A stretch of DNA of 22,724 nucleotides from a virus. The DNA is taken from positions 1-22,724 of IMG/VR virus record IMGVR_UViG_3300020477_000143; one strand, 5' to 3'. Below are positions 6,839-22,539 of the stretch, piece after piece (within the stretch, counting starts at the first letter, position 1; every line of letters starts with the position of its first letter). Made by a program: the position numbers and the translations under genes. The notes under the pieces were generated by a model. It did no database searches. It worked only from the letters and a program-made list of their open reading frames with translations, and was not told the origin of the DNA.

Positions 6839-6980
6839 GATTGTGCATCTCCTCAAAGAGTTCCGTCAAGGAACGAGCATCTGTCCGACCATCCGGTTTG
6901 TGTTGTGTCAGTGAGAGTGTCTGCATCACAAAATGAAGTTTCTTTTCGATCTGCTTGAGTCGCTTTTCAAAACTATCCAT
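6684..6980 (-). CDS. Small N-terminally coiled-coil protein following terminase
   Basis: 98 codons. The ATG at 6980 overlaps the TerL stop as TAATG, so translation is probably coupled. The first 50 residues look genuine (MDSFEKRLKQIEKKLHFVMQ, then SLTELFEEMHNH) and form an amphipathic coiled coil. After that the sequence becomes Gly/Pro/Asp-rich (the last 25 residues are low complexity), exactly where the competing +1 frame becomes protein-like. It could therefore be a real short protein with an overlapping neighbour, or the start of a longer protein completed by a frameshift near position 6830. Function unknown; the position between TerL and portal suggests packaging or portal assembly. Confidence 0.55.
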   Translation of the reverse strand: MDSFEKRLKQIEKKLHFVMQTLSLTQHKPDGRTDARSLTELFEEMHNHAGTDPQTFADVAQRAFGKPGTRSQPPRPQSADGPDGFPGENGNDADTTTG

Positions 6981-8560
6981 TAGAGTCTCCCTAAATGACT
7001 ATCTGGCGGTGACGATTTGGCCCGTTTTCTGAATGGCGATCCAAACCATTGGACGCTCCCGAAATGAGGAGCCATGTCCGGTTTTTCTTCTTGTGTTTTT
7101 GCGCGAGGATGTCGAGACAGCACATGCTCCAGACAATCCAGCACATGGTCGTTCACTTTATAGCGTTCATAACGTCCTGCGGCGGTAGTATGGTCAGGCC
7201 ACTGTGCGTTTTCGACTTCATATGGCAGCATCGACAACCACGGAGCCAGATAAATCTGCTCGTGTTGGAAATACTGTCGCGCCGCTTCGGTTCTGACTTC
7301 CCGACCACGTTTATTTGCCATCAGATGCACGCCATGGTGCAGACATTCCTGTTTGAACTGACTATTGCTATCGACCCACGCAATCGGGCGTGTTTTCCAA
7401 CGACGGGCCATCGCTTTGACCTCATCAGCCCATCGCACAATCGAACTGTTCTCATCCAGTTCAGGCGTATTTGCGACATACCGATAATTGGTCACTTCAT
7501 CAATCACAAAGGCATTGCCTTCTGGAGAAATCGCCACGGCCAAGGCCGCGCAGTAGGTGCCGGTATCGGCTCCGATTTCCACCCGCCAGTCTGACGGCAG
7601 TCTGAAATTACTCATTGTGGGTTCGATTTTTGTGTTGACCCAGACGGTGGGATGATCGGTCAGGGAAATCTGTCGATCTCCCCGATGGTAGTTATAGACA
7701 CGCCCGACGTAATCTCCGAGTTTTCCGAGATAGGCAATCGAAAACTGTTCTCTAGTGAGTAATTGCTCATCACGGTCCATCGCGGCCTGATCGAAGCTAT
7801 AGGGATTGACCATGGCTGGCACACCACATTTGCAGACCCATGAGGGAAAATCGGGATCGCCGTGTCCATGATCGTGAAAGACCTGCACCCATGGTCTGTC
7901 AGGCGTGGTCGGAAAGACCGCATAGCCCTGCCTGACCCGTAAATTCTGCGCGACTGACGTAAAACACTCGATACCGGGAAGTTGATACGCTTCGCAATAG
8001 ATATACGCATCGACTTCCTTCCCCTTGAGTGATTCTGACCGTTCCCACGACCGCGCTTCAAAGCGGCATCCGTTATCCAGTTCCAGCCACAAGCGTCCAT
8101 CTTTCGGGCGATTTTGCAGAGATTTGGGTTTTTGATTAAGGCCACGTTCTGAGCACAGGGCTTCCAGGAGATATTCAAATTCAGGGGCGGTCATGTCGTA
8201 TTCATTCCCGACCAGATAGACCAACGCATTCGGAACGGCAGCAAACGCAGCGGCCCAGATTCCTGCTCCGGCAGATTTGCCTGACTTGTAGGCTCCGAGT
8301 TCTGCCACCACTTTGGCACGCCCAGTGTCTCGTGGCACAAGTGATCTGGTCACAACATCCCCTGACGGCAATCGCACTTCAATGGATGGCCCTTCGTCAT
8401 CGGGATCAAGCACAATATCGGTCAGTTCATACCCATCGGTGGTGACCCACCAGGCGGCCTGATGCTCAAACGGCACGAACTCAGTTTTTTTACAGAGAAA
8501 TCGACGAAACTCCGTCATCAGACGATCTCTGAGCAGTGGGGGTGCCGTGGCCGATGCCAT
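6980..8560 (-). CDS. terL: Terminase large subunit (packaging ATPase-nuclease)
   Basis: 526 residues. The ATPase half has a P-loop, GAYKSGKS at residues 89-96, a Walker B-like strand ending in the catalytic Glu (VDAYIYCE, Glu190), and a coupling-type TTP at about 218-220. The nuclease half has an RNase H-like acidic set: Asp332 in EIGADTGTY, Asp397 in IAWVDSNS, and Asp471 or Asp475 in VNDHVLD. The enzyme cuts concatemeric genome DNA and pumps it into the prohead through the portal. The ATG directly abuts the TAG of the upstream small gene, and the stop overlaps the next ATG as TAATG, so the whole packaging module is translationally coupled. The Cys pair in WVCKCG (about 242-245) is not a standard terminase feature. 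Confidence 0.9.
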   Translation of the reverse strand: MASATAPPLLRDRLMTEFRRFLCKKTEFVPFEHQAAWWVTTDGYELTDIVLDPDDEGPSIEVRLPSGDVVTRSLVPRDTGRAKVVAELGAYKSGKSAGAGIWAAAFAAVPNALVYLVGNEYDMTAPEFEYLLEALCSERGLNQKPKSLQNRPKDGRLWLELDNGCRFEARSWERSESLKGKEVDAYIYCEAYQLPGIECFTSVAQNLRVRQGYAVFPTTPDRPWVQVFHDHGHGDPDFPSWVCKCGVPAMVNPYSFDQAAMDRDEQLLTREQFSIAYLGKLGDYVGRVYNYHRGDRQISLTDHPTVWVNTKIEPTMSNFRLPSDWRVEIGADTGTYCAALAVAISPEGNAFVIDEVTNYRYVANTPELDENSSIVRWADEVKAMARRWKTRPIAWVDSNSQFKQECLHHGVHLMANKRGREVRTEAARQYFQHEQIYLAPWLSMLPYEVENAQWPDHTTAAGRYERYKVNDHVLDCLEHVLSRHPRAKTQEEKPDMAPHFGSVQWFGSPFRKRAKSSPPDSHLGRL

Positions 8561-13946: not shown

Positions 13947-14189
13947 ATGGTCATACAGGCTATCTGGCAGGAAGTAAAAACAACGCTACGGGAACTCCTC
14001 CCGTATGCCATGCTGGTTGCTCTTGGTGTAGCCGTGCTATCCCAACAGGAGCGACTAGTTAACGAGCGATTGGATGGACTCCGAGCGGAGATCTACGAGC
14101 AGACCGCCGTCCTGGAAGCCATTCGGGATCAACTACGAACGAGTGGTCTGGTCGTGCCGCCCTTTCGCACCACTCCGAGCGATGATTAA
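13947..14189 (+). CDS. Small membrane protein with coiled-coil tail (lysis cassette)
   Basis: 80 residues. One hydrophobic segment at about residues 18-32 (LLPYAMLVALGVAVLS) is followed by a long charged heptad-like helix (QERLVNERLDGLRAEIYEQ, then TAVLEAIRDQLRT) and a Pro-rich C-terminus. A single N-terminal anchor plus coiled coil, immediately before an endolysin gene, fits an i-spanin-like or holin-like lysis protein; the i-spanin idea matches the topology better. No ribosome-binding site precedes the ATG. A weak TTGCCT-16-TAGACT promoter-like pair at 13913-13940 would start transcription at or next to the ATG, so the mRNA could be leaderless. The gene overlaps the endolysin start by 8 nt. 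Confidence 0.55.
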   Translation: MVIQAIWQEVKTTLRELLPYAMLVALGVAVLSQQERLVNERLDGLRAEIYEQTAVLEAIRDQLRTSGLVVPPFRTTPSDD

Positions 14190-14580
14190 GTTTGAAGGGT
14201 TGCGCGAGGCACTGCACCTGAACTATCCCCATCCAGAATTGATTGCCGTCTTAAAACTCGGAAGCGTCTGGTCAGCGAAATCTGGTTGGGATTTGAGAAT
14301 TACCTCGCTGAACGACCACATTCATACGAAACCGACAAAAAAGAACCCCAATCGAGCGATGAGCCTTCATTACTCCGACTTGGCGGTCGATTTTGTTGTG
14401 CAGTACAGTAACGGGCAACCAAATAAAGACGCGATGGCTGAACTTGCACAGTTCTTTCGAGATAATCTCGGCGCAGGGTATGACATTCTGCATGGGAAAG
14501 CGGTCAAGCATGAATCCCATATTCATGTGGAATGGGATACTAACCAACGCGCCCGTCGCAACGGGAGTCGCAGTGGCTAA
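14182..14580 (+). CDS. Endolysin, M15-type peptidase (D-Ala-D-Ala/L-Ala-D-Glu class)
   Basis: 132 residues from the ATG at 14182, which overlaps the previous stop; a longer frame upstream is only the alternate frame of that gene. The zinc-ligand pattern of peptidase family M15 is visible: SLHYSDLAVD gives His63 and Asp70 (H-x6-D), and SHIHVEWD gives His113 and His115. The usual Gly between His and Asp is replaced (DLAVD). M15 phage enzymes cut stem-peptide bonds of peptidoglycan to release progeny. There is no signal peptide or cell-wall-binding domain, so export would depend on a holin, as expected in this small cassette. The length is at the short end for the family. Confidence 0.74.
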   Translation: MIKFEGLREALHLNYPHPELIAVLKLGSVWSAKSGWDLRITSLNDHIHTKPTKKNPNRAMSLHYSDLAVDFVVQYSNGQPNKDAMAELAQFFRDNLGAGYDILHGKAVKHESHIHVEWDTNQRARRNGSRSG

Positions 14581-15342: not shown

Positions 15343-16176
15343 ATGGAAGATACGAATGCTCTGGTCATTACCGATGACCAGATGAACCTGATTCGTCGGA
15401 CAGTAGCTAACGGTGCGACAGAATCTGAACTGGCACTCTACCTGTATGACTGCCAACGCCAACGGGTACACCCGCTGGATAAGCTGCTGCATTTCACGAA
15501 GCGCGGTGGACGCTATGTGCCTGTGACCTCTATCGATCTGATGCGGTCACGCGCAGCAGAAACAGGCGAGTATGCCGGAAGCTCTGACCCTGTTGTTAAA
15601 ACAGCAGGGAAGGAACTGAAGTCGGCCACGGTCACCGTGACTCGGATCGTGCAGGGACAACGGTGCGAGTTTACCGCGACGGCGGCGTTTGAAGAATACA
15701 AACCGGACAGGTCACCCATGTGGGTGAAGATGCCGATCACGATGTTGTCGAAATGCGCGGAAGCCTGTGCGCTCCGTAAAGGGTTCCCACAGCAACTCGC
15801 CGGAATGTATGGCAAGGAAGAACTCGATCAGGCCGTGACAGAACTTGACATCAAAGCGGTTGCGCCTAGCCCACTCCCGGCTGTTCCTGTGTCGCCTGGT
15901 TTGTCTATGAACGACGAGGAAGAACCGCAGCATACCGCAGACACGGTGGATGTCTCGACCGGAGAGGTGCAGCCGACAGCCGTGACCGGCAAGAAGGTCA
16001 CCGGCCCACAGGTCAAGCGTATCTACGGCAAGATTAGAAGCTCAGGCAAGGACAAGGACGACGTTCTGGCCTACGTCAAAGAGACATTCGGAGTCGATTC
16101 GTTTGAAGACTTGGTCTGGAATAAAAACGGTGACAGTCCCTACGATCAGGTATGTCAGTGGATAGACGACCAGTAA
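15343..16176 (+). CDS. bet: Bet/RecT-family single-strand annealing protein
   Basis: 277 residues, with an excellent AGGAGGAA before the ATG. The core matches phage recombination protein Bet: HPLDKLLHFTKRGGRYVPVT at about residues 43-62, DLMRSRAAETGEYAGSS, and the strongly conserved MWVKMPITMLSKCAEACALR and KGFPQQLAGMYGKEELDQA near residues 125-165. Bet anneals complementary single strands made by a partner exonuclease. The C-terminus (about 215-277, GPQVKRIYGKIRSSG, VKETFGV) is a separate small helical domain often found at the end of phage RecT or ERF proteins. The next gene overlaps it by 25 nt and encodes the probable exonuclease, so the pair forms a Red-like module. No RecA-like gene is needed. 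Confidence 0.85.
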   Translation: MEDTNALVITDDQMNLIRRTVANGATESELALYLYDCQRQRVHPLDKLLHFTKRGGRYVPVTSIDLMRSRAAETGEYAGSSDPVVKTAGKELKSATVTVTRIVQGQRCEFTATAAFEEYKPDRSPMWVKMPITMLSKCAEACALRKGFPQQLAGMYGKEELDQAVTELDIKAVAPSPLPAVPVSPGLSMNDEEEPQHTADTVDVSTGEVQPTAVTGKKVTGPQVKRIYGKIRSSGKDKDDVLAYVKETFGVDSFEDLVWNKNGDSPYDQVCQWIDDQ

Positions 16177-16685
16177 GGTTTAGTTCTGCGTGGAGTGTCG
16201 GTCGAGTTTTGGCAACGGTCTTCGGTTCGCCGGACTTTATCCCCGCCGTGTATCTCAAGCGGGGAGCCGACATTCACCGTTGGACTGAACATTACGATCT
16301 GGGACAGGTCTACAGGCCAGAGGAAGACTTGGCTGGCTGGTGCGATGCCTACAAAGCCTTCACCTATGCTCATGCACCCTCATGGCATGACAATGGGATT
16401 GAAACGGTGTTTGAGACAGGGGTCTATCACGGGGTGATTGACCGGATAGGCTTCCTGAAGGGCTTTGGTGAAAGCGTCTGCGACATCAAAACCGGCAAGC
16501 CTAATCCCAAGAAAGACTCGCTCCAGCTTGCCGCCTATACGCAGGGCTTCTTCCCTGAGACATACGACTCAATCGACAGGGTTGGTATTTATATTGCGAA
16601 GGATGGCACATATAAGGTGCGACAATACGACGACAATGAAGATTTTCAACGGTGGAAAGAAATTCTTCACCATGCGATTACATAG
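16152..16685 (+). CDS. RecB/Cas4-like PD-(D/E)XK exonuclease
   Basis: 177 residues, overlapping bet by 25 nt. The PD-(D/E)XK core is clear: His42 in GADIHRW, Asp97 in VYHGVIDRIG, the DIK pair Asp111/Lys113 in VCDIKTGK, and Gln125/Tyr129 in LQLAAYTQ. This order (H, GxxD, DxK, QxxxY) is that of RecB-family and lambda-Exo-like nucleases. It would digest one strand of DNA ends and supply the single strands that the Bet-like partner anneals. It lacks the Cys ligands of Cas4, so it is probably not an iron-sulfur form. Start choice: the ATG at 16152 is the only early start in frame and fits the tight overlap seen elsewhere. Confidence 0.82.
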   Translation: MSVDRRPVRFSSAWSVGRVLATVFGSPDFIPAVYLKRGADIHRWTEHYDLGQVYRPEEDLAGWCDAYKAFTYAHAPSWHDNGIETVFETGVYHGVIDRIGFLKGFGESVCDIKTGKPNPKKDSLQLAAYTQGFFPETYDSIDRVGIYIAKDGTYKVRQYDDNEDFQRWKEILHHAIT

Positions 16686-16699
16686 CGAGGGTTGTTGAC

Positions 16700-16870
16700 A
16701 TGAATATGGATTACCCGTGGAGTCATATAGATGGATGTCCCTGCCCGTCGTGCGGTGATAAAGCCGCCGAGGAACAAGAGAGATTAGAACGTGAGCTTGA
16801 AGATCCTGACAGCCCACTACATGATCCAGAGTCAGAGGAATACAAGGAAGTTTACGGTGAAGGTCAATGA
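16700..16870 (+). CDS. Small CPCPSC zinc-knuckle protein
   Basis: 56 residues from the ATG at 16700, preceded by GAGGG about 8 nt upstream; a longer frame starts inside the exonuclease gene. The sequence is MNMDYPWSHIDGCPCPSCGD, then a very acidic helix (AAEEQERLERELEDPDS) and a charged tail. The CxCxxC motif at about residues 13-18 is shared with two other proteins of the window. Its stop overlaps the ATG of the initiator gene, so it belongs to the recombination-replication operon and might modulate one of its neighbours. Confidence 0.6.
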   Translation: MNMDYPWSHIDGCPCPSCGDKAAEEQERLERELEDPDSPLHDPESEEYKEVYGEGQ

Positions 16871-17637
16871 AAGCGCAGACGGGGCCACTAGCCAATATCC
16901 CGTTGTGGCTGATTGAGCACCGTGAGGTCAGTGCGATGGCCGTCAGGCTCTGGGGGTTACTGTATGCCAAATACACCACCCGCACCCCTGACGCGCCCGT
17001 CGCTGAACCGACACGGCCACAACTGGCGCATGACCTTGATTGTTCCGTTGATTCTATTGACCGCTACCTGAAAGCCCTCTCAAAGGCAGGGGCTATTACA
17101 GTGATCAATCAACATACCAGTAGCAAACAACAGGCGCAGAATCGGTATGAACTGACGATGGTGCAGGGGGGCCGTAACGATACGGCTGGCCTAGCCGCAC
17201 CAGTGCGGCCCACCAGAACGGCTAACTTGTTTAGTGAGAAGCCTTTAACGATTGCTGAACAGTCAGAACGGGCAAAAGAGAGTAGTAGTAGTTCTTTAGT
17301 ACGTACAGTACAGTACGTACGGTTTGATCAATTTTGGAATCTCTATCCGAGGAACCATAAGAAACAACGGGCAAAAGTCGCATGGTTGAAACTCAAGGTG
17401 GAACAGGACATGGCCTTGTGGACGGCCATCATCGGTGGACTGCGACGATGGATGGACTATTGGTCGTCACAGGGAACCAAGCAGCAATACATTCCGTATG
17501 CCAGTACATGGCTGAATGACCGCCAATGGGAAGACGAGATTGAAATAGAGACTCGACCATCCCTGAGTCGGCAGTCTCAATCCCTTGTAGCGGCCTCACA
17601 AGCCTTCCTAGACCGCAGGAAGGGGGAAGCATCGTGA
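16867..17637 (+). CDS. O-like phage replication initiator
   Basis: 256 residues. The N-terminal part (about 14-95) is a winged-helix region (LIEHREVSAMAVRLWGLLYA, AHDLDCSVDSIDRYLKALSK) like that of phage O or DnaD-type initiators. A low-complexity Ser-rich linker (about 136-146) follows. The C-terminal domain (FDQFWNLYPRNHKKQRAK and YIPYASTWLNDRQWEDE, about residues 153-223) is the common end of phage replication-initiation proteins. It should bind the origin and recruit the helicase. The linker DNA contains a striking palindromic GTAC cluster (17299-17320), in the position where lambda places its origin inside gene O. It overlaps the upstream gene by 4 nt, and its TGA overlaps the downstream start. 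Confidence 0.78.
   Translation: MKAQTGPLANIPLWLIEHREVSAMAVRLWGLLYAKYTTRTPDAPVAEPTRPQLAHDLDCSVDSIDRYLKALSKAGAITVINQHTSSKQQAQNRYELTMVQGGRNDTAGLAAPVRPTRTANLFSEKPLTIAEQSERAKESSSSSLVRTVQYVRFDQFWNLYPRNHKKQRAKVAWLKLKVEQDMALWTAIIGGLRRWMDYWSSQGTKQQYIPYASTWLNDRQWEDEIEIETRPSLSRQSQSLVAASQAFLDRRKGEAS
17281..17336 (+). other. Palindromic GTAC cluster inside initiator gene (origin candidate)
   Basis: AGT repeats (17281-17292) lead into two identical GTACGTAC palindromes (17299-17306 and 17313-17320) around AGTACA. This makes a perfect inverted repeat with five GTAC sites, followed by an A/T-rich stretch (17321-17336). It lies in the part of the gene that codes for a Ser-rich linker, where sequence is free to vary, as in lambda O. 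Confidence 0.5.
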
Positions 17638-18203
17638 TGACCTATACGCTGGCGTCAGAGGCTCCTGAGCGGTTTCTACAAGCCTTCAACAATCTGGCGG
17701 TATCGAAGTCAGGTGAACATGACGAGAACGAGTTTGAGTCATATTTCCAAGAACTCGGTGAACTGCCCATAGACTCTGTCGAACAGGCTGCACGGGAGCT
17801 TAAACGGACACCTGGCCCATTTATGCCGGACTGTGGAACTTGGTTTCGATTAGCCGACAAGATTGCTGCGGAAGCACTAGAGAAAGACAACGAGGTAGAA
17901 GTCTTACAGTTGTCGTCAGGGCAGCATATTGAACGCGATGCGATAGAACGAACGAAGGTGGCACGGGCTGAGTTTGTAGAAAAACTGGAAGCTCTGACAG
18001 GGAGAACACTACCTGACGATCACCCAATGAAGTCTGGTGATATTCGACTTCCAACCTTCGCCTGTCATCTGTGTAAGGACTCTGGGTTTGTGTCAGCAGA
18101 ACATCGTCGTGTCCAGCGATGCGTCTGCCATGCTACGAATCCAGTCCTTCAGAAGTATCGGGTTAAGAGTCGAGTGAAGGATGCCAAGGATAAGGTAGGA
18201 TGA
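17637..18203 (+). CDS. Replication partner / helicase-loader-like protein
   Basis: 188 residues from the ATG at 17637; a GTG at 17634 gives one more residue. AGGGGGAAG lies about 8 nt upstream, within the initiator gene end. The N-terminal half is helical (ERFLQAFNNLAVSK, FESYFQELGEL, VEQAARELKRTPGPFMPDCG). The C-terminal third has a CHLCKDSGF segment, then RVQRCVCH, a Cys4-type zinc ribbon (C-x2-C ... C-x1-C). Similar proteins follow O-like initiators in many phages and act as lambda P-like loaders of the host helicase. That role is inferred from order and from the zinc ribbon; no Walker motif is present, so it is not a DnaC-type ATPase. Confidence 0.6.
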   Translation: MTYTLASEAPERFLQAFNNLAVSKSGEHDENEFESYFQELGELPIDSVEQAARELKRTPGPFMPDCGTWFRLADKIAAEALEKDNEVEVLQLSSGQHIERDAIERTKVARAEFVEKLEALTGRTLPDDHPMKSGDIRLPTFACHLCKDSGFVSAEHRRVQRCVCHATNPVLQKYRVKSRVKDAKDKVG

Positions 18204-18232
18204 TCTTGGGATATGAGGGGTTTTCGGGGTTG

Positions 18233-18249
18233 CTACGCTCCCTGCGTAG
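18233..18249 (+). other. Short hairpin after replication genes
   Basis: CTACGC (18233-18238) pairs with GCGTAG (18244-18249) around a 5-nt loop. No T-run follows, so it is not an intrinsic terminator. It stands in the 158-nt gap that also holds the 22-bp tandem repeat. Confidence 0.3.
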
Positions 18250-18303
18250 TGTCGGTCAGCCAGCCGTCCTCCACCCAGACAACCTCTCTATCCCCCCATT
18301 ACA

Positions 18304-18356
18304 AATCTCCACCTTTCTCCACCGTAATCTCCACCTTTCTCCACCGTAATCTCCAC
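18304..18356 (+). repeat. 22-bp tandem repeat, 2.4 copies
   Basis: The unit AATCTCCACCTTTCTCCACCGT (22 nt) occurs at 18304-18325 and 18326-18347 without mismatch, and a third partial copy (AATCTCCAC) runs to 18356. TCTCCAC occurs five times, at 18306, 18316, 18328, 18338 and 18350, about one helical turn apart. It ends 5 nt before the HNH gene start and follows the initiator genes, so it is either an iteron-like protein-binding site or a regulatory leader for the HNH gene. Confidence 0.7.
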
Positions 18357-18361
18357 ACATA

Positions 18362-18655
18362 ATGCAATTCCCTAAACCAACTTCTCGAAAACGGGAAAAA
18401 GCGGCAAAGAAAGCTCGTCGGAAGGCGCATATTGCCAAAATACGACGACAAGTGTCGATGCGTGACCGTCGATGTCGAATCTGTGGCGAACTGTTTGGGG
18501 TTGGTGAACTAACGCCAGAGATGCACGAGCTTCAAAGCCGCGCACAACTGCGAGGCCGACCGATTGAAGAAATCTTTAGTCTGGAAAACTGTGTCATGTT
18601 GCACCGGAAATGCCATCGTCATGTGACCGAAAAAAGGATATCCCTAAACCCATAA
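18362..18655 (+). CDS. HNH endonuclease-like protein
   Basis: 97 residues. A very basic N-terminus (KREKAAKKARRKAHIAKIRR) is followed by C38-RI-C41, the HELQSR segment with His55, and the C-terminal NCVMLHRKCHRHV with Cys77, His81, Cys84 and His85. This is the HNH zinc-nuclease layout with paired CxxC and C..H..CH ligands. Phage HNH proteins nick or cut DNA in packaging or as mobile elements. This one is in a replication region, not beside terminase. No ribosome-binding site precedes the ATG, because the upstream sequence is the pyrimidine-rich repeat, so the start may be later or translation may be low. It could be a free-standing homing enzyme. Confidence 0.7.
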   Translation: MQFPKPTSRKREKAAKKARRKAHIAKIRRQVSMRDRRCRICGELFGVGELTPEMHELQSRAQLRGRPIEEIFSLENCVMLHRKCHRHVTEKRISLNP

Positions 18656-18715
18656 TAGAATTGCCAGTAGAATGCCATAGCATCAATCGGTAAGGCGAGT
18701 ATCATAAAATTTCAA

Positions 18716-19048
18716 ATGGCAAAACGAGTCGATAAAAATCACAAGGAACTAGTTGCCGCGCTCAGGAAAATCCCAGGGGTCAGCGTCTTCAGCTTGGCCG
18801 ATCTTGGGAAGGGTGTTCCTGATATCTGCATCGGGTATCGCTCGTTCAACATACTGGCCGAGATAAAAAGTGCGAAGGGGAAGCTCAATCCCCTGCAAAC
18901 AGAGTGGCATTTCACATGGACGGGAACCCCTGTGGTTATTCTCAGGGACACTGATGACATCGCAGAACTCATCAAGACACTGGACACATTCTATGTCGAG
19001 CTAGGACAGAGACTGGCCGACGCAATCATCAAGAAGGAGAATCCATGA
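18716..19048 (+). CDS. VRR-NUC domain nuclease
   Basis: 110 residues. The conserved core GKGVPDICIG (Asp36), ILAEIKSAKGK (Glu49, Lys51) and a downstream Gln61 are the PD-(D/E)XK residues of VRR-NUC proteins. This family includes stand-alone phage nucleases and the nuclease domain of FAN1. A basic N-terminal helix (MAKRVDKNHKELVAALRK) fits DNA contact. The family acts on branched or junction DNA; a role in resolving replication or recombination intermediates is the natural inference. It overlaps the next start by 4 nt (ATGA). A 60-nt gap after the HNH gene shows no convincing promoter. Confidence 0.82.
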   Translation: MAKRVDKNHKELVAALRKIPGVSVFSLADLGKGVPDICIGYRSFNILAEIKSAKGKLNPLQTEWHFTWTGTPVVILRDTDDIAELIKTLDTFYVELGQRLADAIIKKENP

Positions 19049-19569
19049 CAGAGCTTTCTCTGGTCACAGACCCCACTGGCGTTGTTGCGCCACGCCCTGA
19101 TACCCAAGCACTCAGATTGACAGCGGGTATCCTGATGACATCGACAGGAGCGGTCATCAGTGAGGACATCACGATTGAGGAATTTTGCGACGGGTTGAAA
19201 AATTGCCAAGCCCTGGCGAACTCCAGCATGTGGACGCTTGGAGACTTACTAGCCTACGGAGAGTCCAGAGGCGAGTGGGGGGAAATGTATACCCAAGCTC
19301 TCGACCTCACGCAGAAGTCCTATAGCACCCTGACTCAGGCCATGCATATTTCCAAGCAATACCCCATGGAAGAACGCAATGCTGATGTCTCATGGAGCCA
19401 CCATCGTGAAGCGGCATCAATTAAAAATCGTGACGAGCGACAGTCAGTCCTGCGCCAAGCGGCTGACGAGGGATGGACACGGGAACAGGTGCGAGAGCAT
19501 GTCAAAGGCTCCAGCGTAGCCGCGAAGAAGGTCACTACCTGTCCTCAATGTGGTCACGAGTGGTCGTAG
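19045..19569 (+). CDS. ParB-like helical protein with C-terminal zinc ribbon
   Basis: 174 residues, with the ATG overlapping the VRR-NUC stop as ATGA. The central part (MWTLGDLLAYGESRGEWGE, SYSTLTQAMHISKQYP, WSHHREAASI, DERQSVLRQAADEGWTREQV) resembles the helix-turn-helix portion of ParB/KorB-like proteins, especially the segment that scores a site then packs on a HTH. The C-terminus ends in TTCPQCGHEWS (Cys166, Cys169), half of a zinc ribbon. Phage proteins of this shape can be partition, DNA-binding or recombination accessory factors. I cannot choose, but its place among nucleases supports DNA binding. Confidence 0.58.
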   Translation: MTELSLVTDPTGVVAPRPDTQALRLTAGILMTSTGAVISEDITIEEFCDGLKNCQALANSSMWTLGDLLAYGESRGEWGEMYTQALDLTQKSYSTLTQAMHISKQYPMEERNADVSWSHHREAASIKNRDERQSVLRQAADEGWTREQVREHVKGSSVAAKKVTTCPQCGHEWS

Positions 19570-19572
19570 ACG

Positions 19573-20121
19573 ATGTCGATAGGAATCTATACCAATATCT
19601 GGATTGGCTCACAGGACGATTGCACACACGGCTCTCAAGATCGTCGTGTTATTCACGCCTGTAAGTATCCCTGCTATAACAAACAGCTTGACGCAGGACA
19701 CAAACCGACAAAGTCTGACGATAATTATTTAGTCGTGCAGCATGAGCACGATCTGTATCTGAATATCGTTGATGCCAGAAAGCCCCTGTTTTTCTTTGAA
19801 ACATTCTGGGCTGTAAAACAGTTCTGCCTGGACACGCCATCGAAGCTCTTGATTCACTGCAATAAAGGGCAGTCTCGGTCTGTGGCCTTGGCTATCTTAT
19901 GTGCCACATGGAGGGGGCTTATCCATCCACGCACATGGAAGGATGCCATCAGGCGGCAGTCATGGGATGAGCGTATCCCTGTCAACTTTGGGGCTGGACT
20001 CAACAGGTTTCTAACAGACAACTGGATGTATCTCACACAGGAGAAAGACCAATGGGATGGCTCACAGCCGGACTCAAATTATTTCCTCTCATCGTGCAAG
20101 GAATCAAAGCCGTCGAAATAA
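19573..20121 (+). CDS. Dual-specificity / tyrosine phosphatase-like protein
   Basis: 182 residues. The phosphatase loop LLIHCNKGQSRSVALAIL is intact: His95, the nucleophile Cys96, and Arg102 in an HCx5R signature followed by the hydrophobic helix typical of dual-specificity phosphatases. A candidate general acid is Asp67 in NIVDARK, where the loop is short, so its assignment is weak. The N-terminal part starts MSIGIYTNIWIGSQDD, like the IxxxIYIGS strand of these enzymes. It would remove phosphate from proteins, RNA caps or small molecules. It starts 3 nt after the previous stop and its last 70 nt overlap the next gene. The nearby replication genes make a host-signalling or DNA-related substrate possible. 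This is a rare type of gene in phages. Confidence 0.76.
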   Translation: MSIGIYTNIWIGSQDDCTHGSQDRRVIHACKYPCYNKQLDAGHKPTKSDDNYLVVQHEHDLYLNIVDARKPLFFFETFWAVKQFCLDTPSKLLIHCNKGQSRSVALAILCATWRGLIHPRTWKDAIRRQSWDERIPVNFGAGLNRFLTDNWMYLTQEKDQWDGSQPDSNYFLSSCKESKPSK

Positions 20122-20321
20122 GATCGAAAGATAAGGGATCGAGTAAGCAGGAAGAAGCCCTGACAATCGTCAGAGAAACACTCGACCAAGATAAAGACGA
20201 CGGGGAAACACTAAAGAATCTCACTCTGTCAGATCCAGCGGTGGAGTTTGCTCTTCGTAACTGTATTGATGCCGCCGTCCATCTGATGAATGTATTATCA
20301 AAGCATAAGAGGTCTTCCTGA
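20052..20321 (+). CDS. Small helical protein overlapping the phosphatase gene
   Basis: 89 residues, with CACAGGAG about 8 nt before the ATG, which supports the start although the first 70 nt lie inside the phosphatase gene. The N-terminus (MGWLTAGLKLFPLIVQGIKA) is an amphipathic or membrane-associated helix. The rest is acidic and helical (SKQEEALTIVRETLDQDKDD, then a helix ending HLMNVLSKHKRSS). No motif recognised. It is the last gene of the rightward block and lies next to the minus-strand terminator. Confidence 0.56.
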   Translation: MGWLTAGLKLFPLIVQGIKAVEIRSKDKGSSKQEEALTIVRETLDQDKDDGETLKNLTLSDPAVEFALRNCIDAAVHLMNVLSKHKRSS

Positions 20322-20366
20322 AAAATTAAAAAGGGCGAAGCCATCTGACTAGGAATGGCAACGCCC
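20321..20366 (-). terminator. Minus-strand intrinsic terminator
   Basis: Read on the minus strand, GGGCG-TT-GCCAT pairs with ATGGC-TT-CGCCC (20366-20333), with a small internal loop. It is followed by TTTTTAATTTTT (20332-20321). It ends transcription from the leftward genes at 20581-22539 and prevents it from running into the rightward replication block. The hairpin alone could also pause rightward transcription. Confidence 0.78.
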
Positions 20367-20395
20367 ATAAGGAATAGACTCTTTCAGTATACACC

Positions 20396-20638
20396 ATGAA
20401 ACAGCAGACCTTGTTTCCGGCATTACACTCACGCGCAACGAACCGGACTAAGAATGGAGAACTTGCCTGTGCCTTTGGGACACCATGGCTTGACCATGAC
20501 ACCGCTCGTATCGATCACCTTACAGGATGTCGCGGTTGCGACGAGGCTACTCTCAGAGCGGTGACTCATAGTTCTTCTGGTCATAAACCACCCACGAAGA
20601 GTCCAAGGGCGGTTCCGCATCCTGCTCCAAAGGCGTAG
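20396..20638 (+). CDS. Doubtful small Cys-pair protein, convergent with membrane gene
   Basis: 80 residues, beginning MKQQTLFPALHSRATNRTKN, with a GCRGC segment (GCRGCDEATLRA) and a Pro-rich end. An AAGGAATAGA copy lies at 20369-20378, but 17 nt before the ATG, too far for a good ribosome-binding site. Its last 58 nt overlap the convergent membrane-protein gene. It sits after the minus-strand terminator. A competing minus-strand frame (start near 20566) also exists. I keep it as a candidate only because the middle looks protein-like. Confidence 0.35.
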   Translation: MKQQTLFPALHSRATNRTKNGELACAFGTPWLDHDTARIDHLTGCRGCDEATLRAVTHSSSGHKPPTKSPRAVPHPAPKA

Positions 20639-20829
20639 ACACAGGCGGCTCCGGCTCCGTCTGCGATTCGACTGGCAGATCGGGCGTTGAGCCACCAGAC
20701 TCCTGACAATAACATCGCCACCAGTATCGACTCACTCCTGCCATCAGCCAGGAGTCGTGTATTAAGAGAGACAAGGGCCACAATAAGGAAGCCTCGAAAC
20801 CAGACATCAACGGCTTGTCGAACTGTCAT
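20581..20829 (-). CDS. Three-helix small membrane protein
   Basis: 82 residues from the ATG at 20829, with GGAAA before it; the longer frame upstream overlaps the next gene more. Hydrophobic segments lie at about residues 10-24 (FRGFLIVALVSLN), 34-48 (SILVAMLLSGVWWLN) and 58-80 (GAACVYAFGAGCGTALGLFVG). The LNTRLLADG...SGVWWLNARSA...YAFGAGCGTALG pattern is one I recall from small phage membrane proteins. Function unknown to me; a holin-like or superinfection-related role is possible. It is the last gene of the leftward convergent block, before the terminator at 20321-20366. Confidence 0.66.
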   Translation of the reverse strand: MTVRQAVDVWFRGFLIVALVSLNTRLLADGRSESILVAMLLSGVWWLNARSASRIADGAGAACVYAFGAGCGTALGLFVGGL

Positions 20830-21118: not shown

Positions 21119-21404
21119 AGAACCATAGCACCTCGTCATCGGTTAGTGTCTTGCGAAGCATCGTCGTCGTGCGTCGAATACTCCGCTCTGACCGTTCTGG
21201 ATAAATGCGGTGAAGCAACTCGTGAATCACGGTGTCTACCACATGATGATGAGGTGCAATAGTAATTGATCCATCCTCACACATGCCATCCACATAATGG
21301 TCAGCCGACACAATATATGCCTCAGTCAGAGGAGCCACAAGGAGTTCCGAGCACAACCGATCCCACAGTTTTTTATGATGTTCGCCACGGACCATCTTCG
21401 ACAT
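21063..21404 (-). CDS. Compact HExxH zinc metallopeptidase-like protein
   Basis: 113 residues from the ATG at 21404; an in-frame TTG precedes it, but GGAG lies about 9 nt before the ATG. The HExxH motif is in VIHELLHRIYPERSERSIRR, and the YPERSER that follows supplies candidate third ligands (Glu residues), as in small SprT-like or gluzincin-type phage proteins. A HHH stretch (APHHHVVD) precedes it. It is too short for a classical peptidase and has no signal peptide, so it acts inside the cell. It could remove a host or phage protein or act as a non-peptidase zinc protein. It overlaps both neighbours. Confidence 0.66.
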   Translation of the reverse strand: MSKMVRGEHHKKLWDRLCSELLVAPLTEAYIVSADHYVDGMCEDGSITIAPHHHVVDTVIHELLHRIYPERSERSIRRTTTMLRKTLTDDEVLWFYDEYQKRKRTGEQRSTDV

Positions 21405-22539
21405 CAAACCATCTCCATCCCACGCTGTTCAGGTCAGTGACTCCATCTTCCTGTTCAAACCAGATGTATCCCCGTCGCTGTGGCCGTCCACCGATACGTG
21501 CGCCAGTCATATATCCCTGCGTCTTACACAAACACCCACATTCAACTAGCAACGAGTCAGATCGCCACGGAAACACCGCCATCGTATGCGTATGTCCCAT
21601 TACCACGAGTCGAATAGCGTCTAGTCCTATCGCTGCTGAGTTATCTGCTGCCCATTCTTGAAAGAATCTCAGCGCACTACCAGGCACACGGCTGTATTTT
21701 TCAGGATGAGCAAGAAGCGCATCGCCCTCAACCAAAAGCCAATCAATAGAGTGGCCGGTATTCGGCACCTCATGCTTGGCAACCTCGATGTTAGGAAACT
21801 TTTTCGACAAGGCTGTAATAGGACATAGCGTTCCTCCTGTCATGGACGAAATAGCCTCAACCATGTCAACGGTCAGGTGAGCAGCAATCGCTTTCCGCAA
21901 TCTCGCATCATGGTTCCCGACAATGACCTTGACTTTAGGAAACGACTCAGAGAATGTCTGCATCAGAGCCGTGACTTCAGCCCATTCATGCGAATACGGA
22001 ACATTCTCATACTTCGCAAACCGAGAGTGACTATAAGCATCCCCAATATCACCAATACAAATAGCAAGATCGACATTACCTTCCTCTTTTGCCAGCATTG
22101 CCGCCACCATATGAGGGTCATGGAAAGGAATATGGAGATCAGGAATGACGAGAATACGCTTCCTGTTTGACTTCTTCTTTCTCGGCTTGGCAGGACCGCG
22201 ATAGCGATCCTTCATCATGCCAATGGTTTCCTGCCACTTCTTCCATGACTCCTCGAAGGTTCTCAGTGGTTGCCGAATCGTCTGGTCAGCCAGTTCTTTA
22301 AGGAGTTCTTTCTTTTGTCGTTGAAGAATGCGACTGTTCTCTGTATAAGGGCCACGTTTCCGGTGGCACTCCATACAGAGCGTCGAGTGCTTGGCGCACT
22401 TCTTCTTACAGTTTAAGCAATTCCACTGTTTCGCTGTAGATTTAATACCAATCCGTTTGTGGTAACACTCCCCACAACGCTTGGCTTTTGGATGAACAAG
22501 AGTATTTTTCTTACATAGAGGACAAATTCGTTTTGACAT
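21373..22539 (-). CDS. Zinc-ribbon metallophosphoesterase
   Basis: 388 residues. The N-terminal region has two zinc-ribbon-like segments: CPLC...CGEC (C6, C9, C22, C25) and CLNC...CMEC (C41, C44, C55, C58). A basic linker (PRKKKSNRKR) follows, then the calcineurin-like phosphoesterase motifs: VIPDLHIPFHD (Asp134, His136), CIGDIGDAYS (Asp164), VGNHDARL (Asn209, His210, Asp211) and GHTHT near residue 315. The fold hydrolyses phosphodiesters or phosphomonoesters with two metal ions. The ribbons suggest nucleic-acid binding, so a DNA or RNA phosphodiesterase or a phosphatase acting on ends is likelier than a protein phosphatase. No ribosome-binding site is strong before the ATG at 22539. Confidence 0.82.
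   Translation of the reverse strand: MSKRICPLCKKNTLVHPKAKRCGECYHKRIGIKSTAKQWNCLNCKKKCAKHSTLCMECHRKRGPYTENSRILQRQKKELLKELADQTIRQPLRTFEESWKKWQETIGMMKDRYRGPAKPRKKKSNRKRILVIPDLHIPFHDPHMVAAMLAKEEGNVDLAICIGDIGDAYSHSRFAKYENVPYSHEWAEVTALMQTFSESFPKVKVIVGNHDARLRKAIAAHLTVDMVEAISSMTGGTLCPITALSKKFPNIEVAKHEVPNTGHSIDWLLVEGDALLAHPEKYSRVPGSALRFFQEWAADNSAAIGLDAIRLVVMGHTHTMAVFPWRSDSLLVECGCLCKTQGYMTGARIGGRPQRRGYIWFEQEDGVTDLNSVGWRWFDVEDGPWRTS

Follow-up and report, generated by a model that had tools for sequence, protein, structure and literature searches.

The window analysed here spans an entire IMG/VR virus record (22,724 bases), possibly a fragment, and carries among its recombination and replication genes one that encodes a small protein with an HCx5R motif, and the question arises what such a protein could do for a phage. 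The first-pass annotation had described an intact HCNKGQSRS loop with Cys96 and Arg102, a position in a phage replication/nuclease block, and a tail overlapping another gene, and these points were borne out. The translated gene (182 aa) contains ...LLIHCNKGQSRSVAL..., in which the numbering of Cys96 and Arg102 is correct, and the downstream ORF begins 70 bp before the end of the phosphatase gene. Read rightward, the block consists of RecT (Pfam, E 2e-20), a PD-(D/E)XK exonuclease (phrog_298), a replication initiator, Rep (phrog_270, 3e-27), an unknown gene, HNH, an endonuclease/Holliday-junction-resolvase-like gene, a 174-aa gene, and the phosphatase gene (Table 1). A promoter and terminator scan of positions 18600-20700 gave no excess over shuffles. 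The 174-aa product is probably a DNA-binding phage protein, and elsewhere in the window the gene at 14074-14580 resembles, by eye, a D-Ala-D-Ala peptidase-type endolysin.

Table 1. Features of the predicted phosphatase, its gene neighbourhood and the terminase gene in the window.
Feature	Position	Strand	Remarks
DSP-fold cysteine phosphatase (predicted), 182 aa	19573..20121	+	candidate catalytic Cys96 and Arg102, candidate general acid Asp67
P-loop HCNKGQSRS, residues 95-103	19855..19881	+	
Subfamily loop motif HACKYPCY, residues 28-35	19654..19677	+	consensus HACK[EH]P[CYF]H; Tyr35 in the window protein
N-x-x-D motif, residues 64-67	19762..19773	+	Asn64 and Asp67 in 66/66 representatives
C-terminal tail, residues ~157-182, non-conserved, low model confidence	20041..20121	+	shares 20052-20121 with the following gene
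Downstream ORF of 89 aa overlapping the DSP gene, without a trusted family match	20052..20321	+	AGGAGA upstream of ATG
Recombination/replication operon: RecT, exonuclease, Rep, HNH, endonuclease/resolvase-like	15343..19048	+	RecT, Rep and HNH in the same order in L007
Upstream neighbour, 174 aa, weak DUF1016_N match, C-terminal CxxC	19045..19569	+	47% identical to an L007 gene shortly upstream of its DSP
Terminase large subunit of the window phage	6980..8560	-	11 kb from the DSP, opposite strand

Taken singly, the window protein matched the DSPc family (PF00782) weakly (E 7e-4, 19.8 bits, with a cut-off of 33.5 bits); 34 of 36 aligned family members matched it at E<=0.01 (best 3e-14), and a family profile compared with solved structures found the dual specificity phosphatases (DSPs) DUSP10 and VHR at E 1e-10. 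Structure prediction, which had been proposed earlier as a check, recovered the alpha-beta fold of DSP/PTP enzymes: the AlphaFold2 model of the window protein (pLDDT 88.4, pTM 0.84) aligned best with DUSP15 (Z 13.8 over 136 residues) and with many DSPs at Z 12-14, and its top match among viral models was a protein of Vibrio phage VpV262. The HCx5R P-loop with a catalytic-type Cys and Arg is present in the window protein and conserved in 66 of 66 representatives, as is Asp67, which lies 29 residues before Cys96 and is a candidate general acid, a role assigned from its position. The enzyme class named in the first-pass annotation is thus supported by the fold, the intact P-loop, the candidate general acid and purifying selection. 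Membership of the DSP superfamily is sound, and enzyme activity is predicted from sequence and model.

A search with the protein itself returned one viral relative, and alignment-based scans yielded 44 and then 91 relatives (one IMG/VR scan). Beyond HCx5R, the subfamily has a signature composed of an H-x-x-K-x-P-x-H loop, an N-x-x-D motif and CNxGxSR, to which the window protein conforms except for Tyr35 in place of His, and with the other members of which it aligns across the full domain. Asn64, Asp67, Cys96, Asn97, Gly99, Ser101, Arg102 and Gly142 were invariant in all 66 representatives; 65 of them have Lys31 and 61 have His at position 35. The last IMG/VR scan selected on the P-loop pattern only and so cannot account for the conservation seen at Asn64, Asp67 and Lys31. 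The tail, residues ~157-182, is missing from most relatives. Selection on the subfamily is purifying, with pairwise dN/dS among the relatives of about 0.05-0.34, where computable. Two full-length members found among 242 haloarchaeal genomes scored 194-207 bits, and the remaining DSP-like matches there were partial and below 39 bits; this split sets the subfamily apart from the ordinary DSPs of cells. The tree divides it in two (support 98/93). One clade, of 21 rows, has a HACK(H/Y/F)PC(H/Y)-type loop and contains the window protein, the fusions to the terminase large subunit (TerL) and the archaeal copies; the other, of 45 rows, has a HACKEP(Y/F/H/W)HR-type loop. The earlier remark that such phosphatases are uncommon in phages held for the annotated phage collection, where each query matched 4-5 of 50,697 records, but the family is recurrent in uncultivated phages.

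Because the relatives match DSPc, the profile finds DSP structures, the model has the fold and dN/dS is low, the HCx5R motif of the window protein is not a chance occurrence; family, fold and selection rule that out. A broken gene or pseudogene was likewise ruled out, by the open frame and by purifying selection in the relatives. The protein might still bind phosphate without catalysis: in some relatives, the Ser after the P-loop Arg is replaced by Ala or Gly, a change that lowers activity in PRL-type phosphatases. However, Cys96, Arg102 and Asp67 are invariant in the 66 representatives, and a pseudophosphatase is, in our opinion, very improbable. Cys30, which presumably sits where the backdoor Cys of PTEN/PRL lies, was considered as a disulphide partner in a family mechanism and set aside, being Ala in 18/66.

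At many loci of the family, the large gene directly downstream of the DSP is TerL. On contigs of at least 20 kb, a same-strand TerL was located within 1.2 kb of the DSP or fused to it in 24 of 50 representatives, where random placement expects about 1.3, and one was located within 3.2 kb or fused in 37 of 62 representatives; the representatives are related, so the loci in both counts are not phylogenetically independent, TerLs of unmodelled type are missed, and the latter count relied on models of the TerLs found, with L077 and Tunturi_3 added by hand. The linkage spans several TerL types, and between DSP and TerL there are small genes of variable make-up. When the linkage was mapped as a label on the tree, 11-13 changes were obtained, only 4 of them forced by well-supported branches. 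The circular genome of the cultured phage Tunturi_3 (97,608 bp) is numbered from the TerL start; its DSP gene gp146 ends at 97081, leaving ~530 bp and a single gene ahead of TerL (gp1). Some TerL genes of 818-925 aa adjoining a DSP look intein-interrupted (L066 3500-5995, L020 6982-9753, L025 6230-9007 and L027 1781-4237).

Three divergent in-frame fusions of 756-767 aa (L008, L010/L011 and L015-L017; two are 48% identical to the first) have the DSP N-terminal to TerL, and their DSP domains keep an intact active site. The C-terminal parts match terminase (phrog_2, 1.4e-10; phrog_24361, 4e-11; PDB 3c6a, 2.8e-4), and it is on these profile matches that the terminase assignment rests, because a structure model of the TerL fusion was unusable (pLDDT 37, from an alignment of three sequences).

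The association with TerL is a property of the subfamily and not of the window locus, where TerL lies far from the DSP on the opposite strand. Same-strand TerL adjacency was found nowhere in the window lineage, which comprises the window, its nearest relatives L051-L055 (about 40% identity) and L007 (36%). L007 shares with the window, in order, RecT, Rep, HNH, the 174-aa gene and DSP; in L051 and L053, the DSP start overlaps with a helicase-like gene, and downstream follows a gene recognised by eye as a RecB-like nuclease. Many other relatives are near neither TerL nor recombination genes, lying for example beside tail or ribonucleotide reductase genes.

The linkage of the family to TerL suggests that the DSP works on the phage's own DNA machinery, and the TerL-adjacent, TerL-fused and recombination/replication contexts point to a role in DNA handling, an option outside the list given in the first-pass annotation, which named a host kinase-based response, RNA 5' ends and an ADP-ribose or nucleotide-type signal as possible targets. 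Alternatively, the gene could be a mobile accessory that settles where insertion is tolerated, for instance at the boundary between replication and packaging genes, with proximity to TerL reflecting a landing site and the substrate lying outside the DNA machinery, for example a host signalling protein or a metabolite. In favour of this reading are the sporadic distribution (the two full-length haloarchaeal members, few isolate phages), the several unrelated contexts and the variable small genes between DSP and TerL, whereas the retention of an intact active site in three divergent in-frame fusions and the spread of the linkage across several TerL families argue against it; we regard it as rather unlikely.

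From the computed properties, namely family, fold, residue conservation, selection and the linkage of the family to TerL, a hypothesis may be inferred that extends to catalysis, to service to the DNA machinery in the window phage and to the class of substrate: the protein would be an active DSP-fold phosphatase of a virus-enriched subfamily that serves the phage DNA-handling machinery, preferably acting on a phosphoprotein. We give this hypothesis, as a whole, about an even chance of being correct. By the chemistry of the superfamily, whose conserved residues suggest catalysis by Cys96, Arg102 and Asp67, Cys96 would attack the phosphate, Arg102 and the CNxGxSR loop would hold it, Asp67 would protonate the leaving group, and the cysteinyl-phosphate intermediate would then be hydrolysed; HxxKxPxH is a conserved basic loop added in the subfamily. 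In some lineages, the DSP most likely serves the packaging motor, adjacent to TerL or fused with it, and in the window lineage, the recombination/replication complex, the putative substrate being a phosphorylated protein in or on the DNA machinery, either a phage protein or a host partner. We lean slightly towards a protein substrate, ahead of DNA ends or nucleotides, since the closest relatives by both sequence and structure are protein DSPs; the in-frame TerL fusions lower the odds that the substrate is a diffusible signal.

The conserved basic loop makes nucleic-acid ends or nucleotides a serious rival as substrates. With its conserved basic residues, the HxxKxPxH loop might help to bind polyphosphate or a DNA or RNA 5' end, and the enzyme might, in the course of recombination or packaging, remove phosphates from DNA ends, from modified bases or from the 5' ends of RNA. 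The contexts of the family would suit such an activity, being DNA-centred (TerL fusions, the RecT/exonuclease/Rep operon, helicase, RecB-like nuclease, ribonucleotide reductase), and one haloarchaeal DSP copy adjoins an Eco57I-type restriction-modification gene. On the other hand, the top matches in sequence and structure are protein DSPs, a Rit1-like match was weak only, and the P-loop, HCNKGQSRS, is not the HCxxGxNRTG form of metazoan and baculoviral RNA 5'-triphosphatases. We consider this reading possible, with a probability well below that of the hypothesis outlined above.

The first-pass annotation had also suggested that the enzyme counters a host kinase-based response. Kinase-mediated abortive infection is real, as exemplified by Stk2 (PMC9952470), and a phosphatase reversing the phosphorylation would be a plausible answer to it. 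The neighbourhoods lend this suggestion no support: neither an anti-defence gene nor a kinase gene was recognised near any viral member, and PADLOC matched 0 of 36 family members. Moreover, an in-frame fusion to TerL is unexpected for a freely acting early counter-defence protein, so that this role appears improbable.

Phosphatases of this type have been annotated in phages before. ORF44 of Vibrio phage VpV262 and NVP1077O_32 of Vibrio phage 1.077.O, both annotated as dual specificity phosphatases, belong to the same subfamily, with an HA[CA]KEP[YF]H loop, N-x-x-D, CNxGxSR and full-length alignment. They nevertheless share 25-26% identity with the window DSP, fall in the other tree clade and are found in a VpV262-type early region without RecT/Rep synteny with the window. 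The TerL fusions L008, L010 and L015 are in the same major clade as the window DSP (L008 and L010 being 38-41% identical to it in the best segments), which, in contrast to them, stands alone in a replication/recombination operon. The eukaryotic DUSP10, DUSP15 and VHR have the fold and P-loop chemistry in common with the window DSP, but identities in structural alignments are 11-21%, and the profile match is concentrated around the P-loop and does not take in the HxxKxPxH loop. The DSP of Sulfolobales Beppu filamentous virus 3 (SBFV3; PDB 7ncy) has a viral DSP fold and a similar P-loop, yet it is a short protein (131-136 residues) of an archaeal filamentous virus that matches the window DSP in sequence only around the P-loop. 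Phrog_5614, of unknown function, was matched by 17 of 36 family members, and by the window protein weakly (E 1e-3). One paper (PMC12038007) counts a tyrosine phosphatase of a Vibrio phage among auxiliary genes. Among open-licence papers, we found none linking a phage dual specificity phosphatase with terminase and none on the SBFV3 phosphatase. DSP annotations in phages (VpV262, 1.077.O) are already known; what is added here is the terminase linkage, of which no description was found.

The viral DSPs for which we found solved structures belong to eukaryotic viruses and to a single archaeal virus; tailed-phage DSPs are annotated, and an explanation of them was not found. A subfamily of DSPs that has a signature of its own and recurs next to TerL or in fusion with it gives the search for the substrate a concrete starting point, and with the gene ~530 bp from TerL in the cultured Tunturi_3, the question is directly testable. 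Tentatively, a wide range of tailed phages may have a phosphatase activity within their DNA-packaging and recombination machinery, in some of them as a part of the terminase itself, and genome handling may include a step of reversible phosphorylation, whether of the motor, of a partner protein or of DNA ends; we hold this wider proposal to be considerably less probable than the hypothesis on the enzyme itself.

Several further observations were made at these loci. In the window, a metallophosphoesterase gene (21373-22539; phrog_221, E 1.6e-21) is convergent with the DSP operon, and L074 has a distant homologue of it, ~3 kb upstream of its own DSP. The Alteromonas macleodii plasmid pMIT1002 carries an unannotated DSP relative (L094 8001-8309; 42.7% over 99 aa) with a HipA-family toxin gene ~3 kb upstream. 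In the haloarchaeal genome G222 (L104 9033-16446), the DSP directly follows a 1291-aa Eco57I-type restriction-modification gene and is followed by a membrane protein gene, with a GmrSD-type gene 4.6 kb away, a defence-island-like setting. The copy in Halobellus captivus (L105 9556-19322) is less than 10 kb from two TGT-family genes (one with DUF5591) and from PTPS/QueD-like, DUF6884, GHKL-type ATPase and 681-aa ATPase-like genes, which together may form a DNA-modification locus of the archaeosine or 7-deazaguanine kind.
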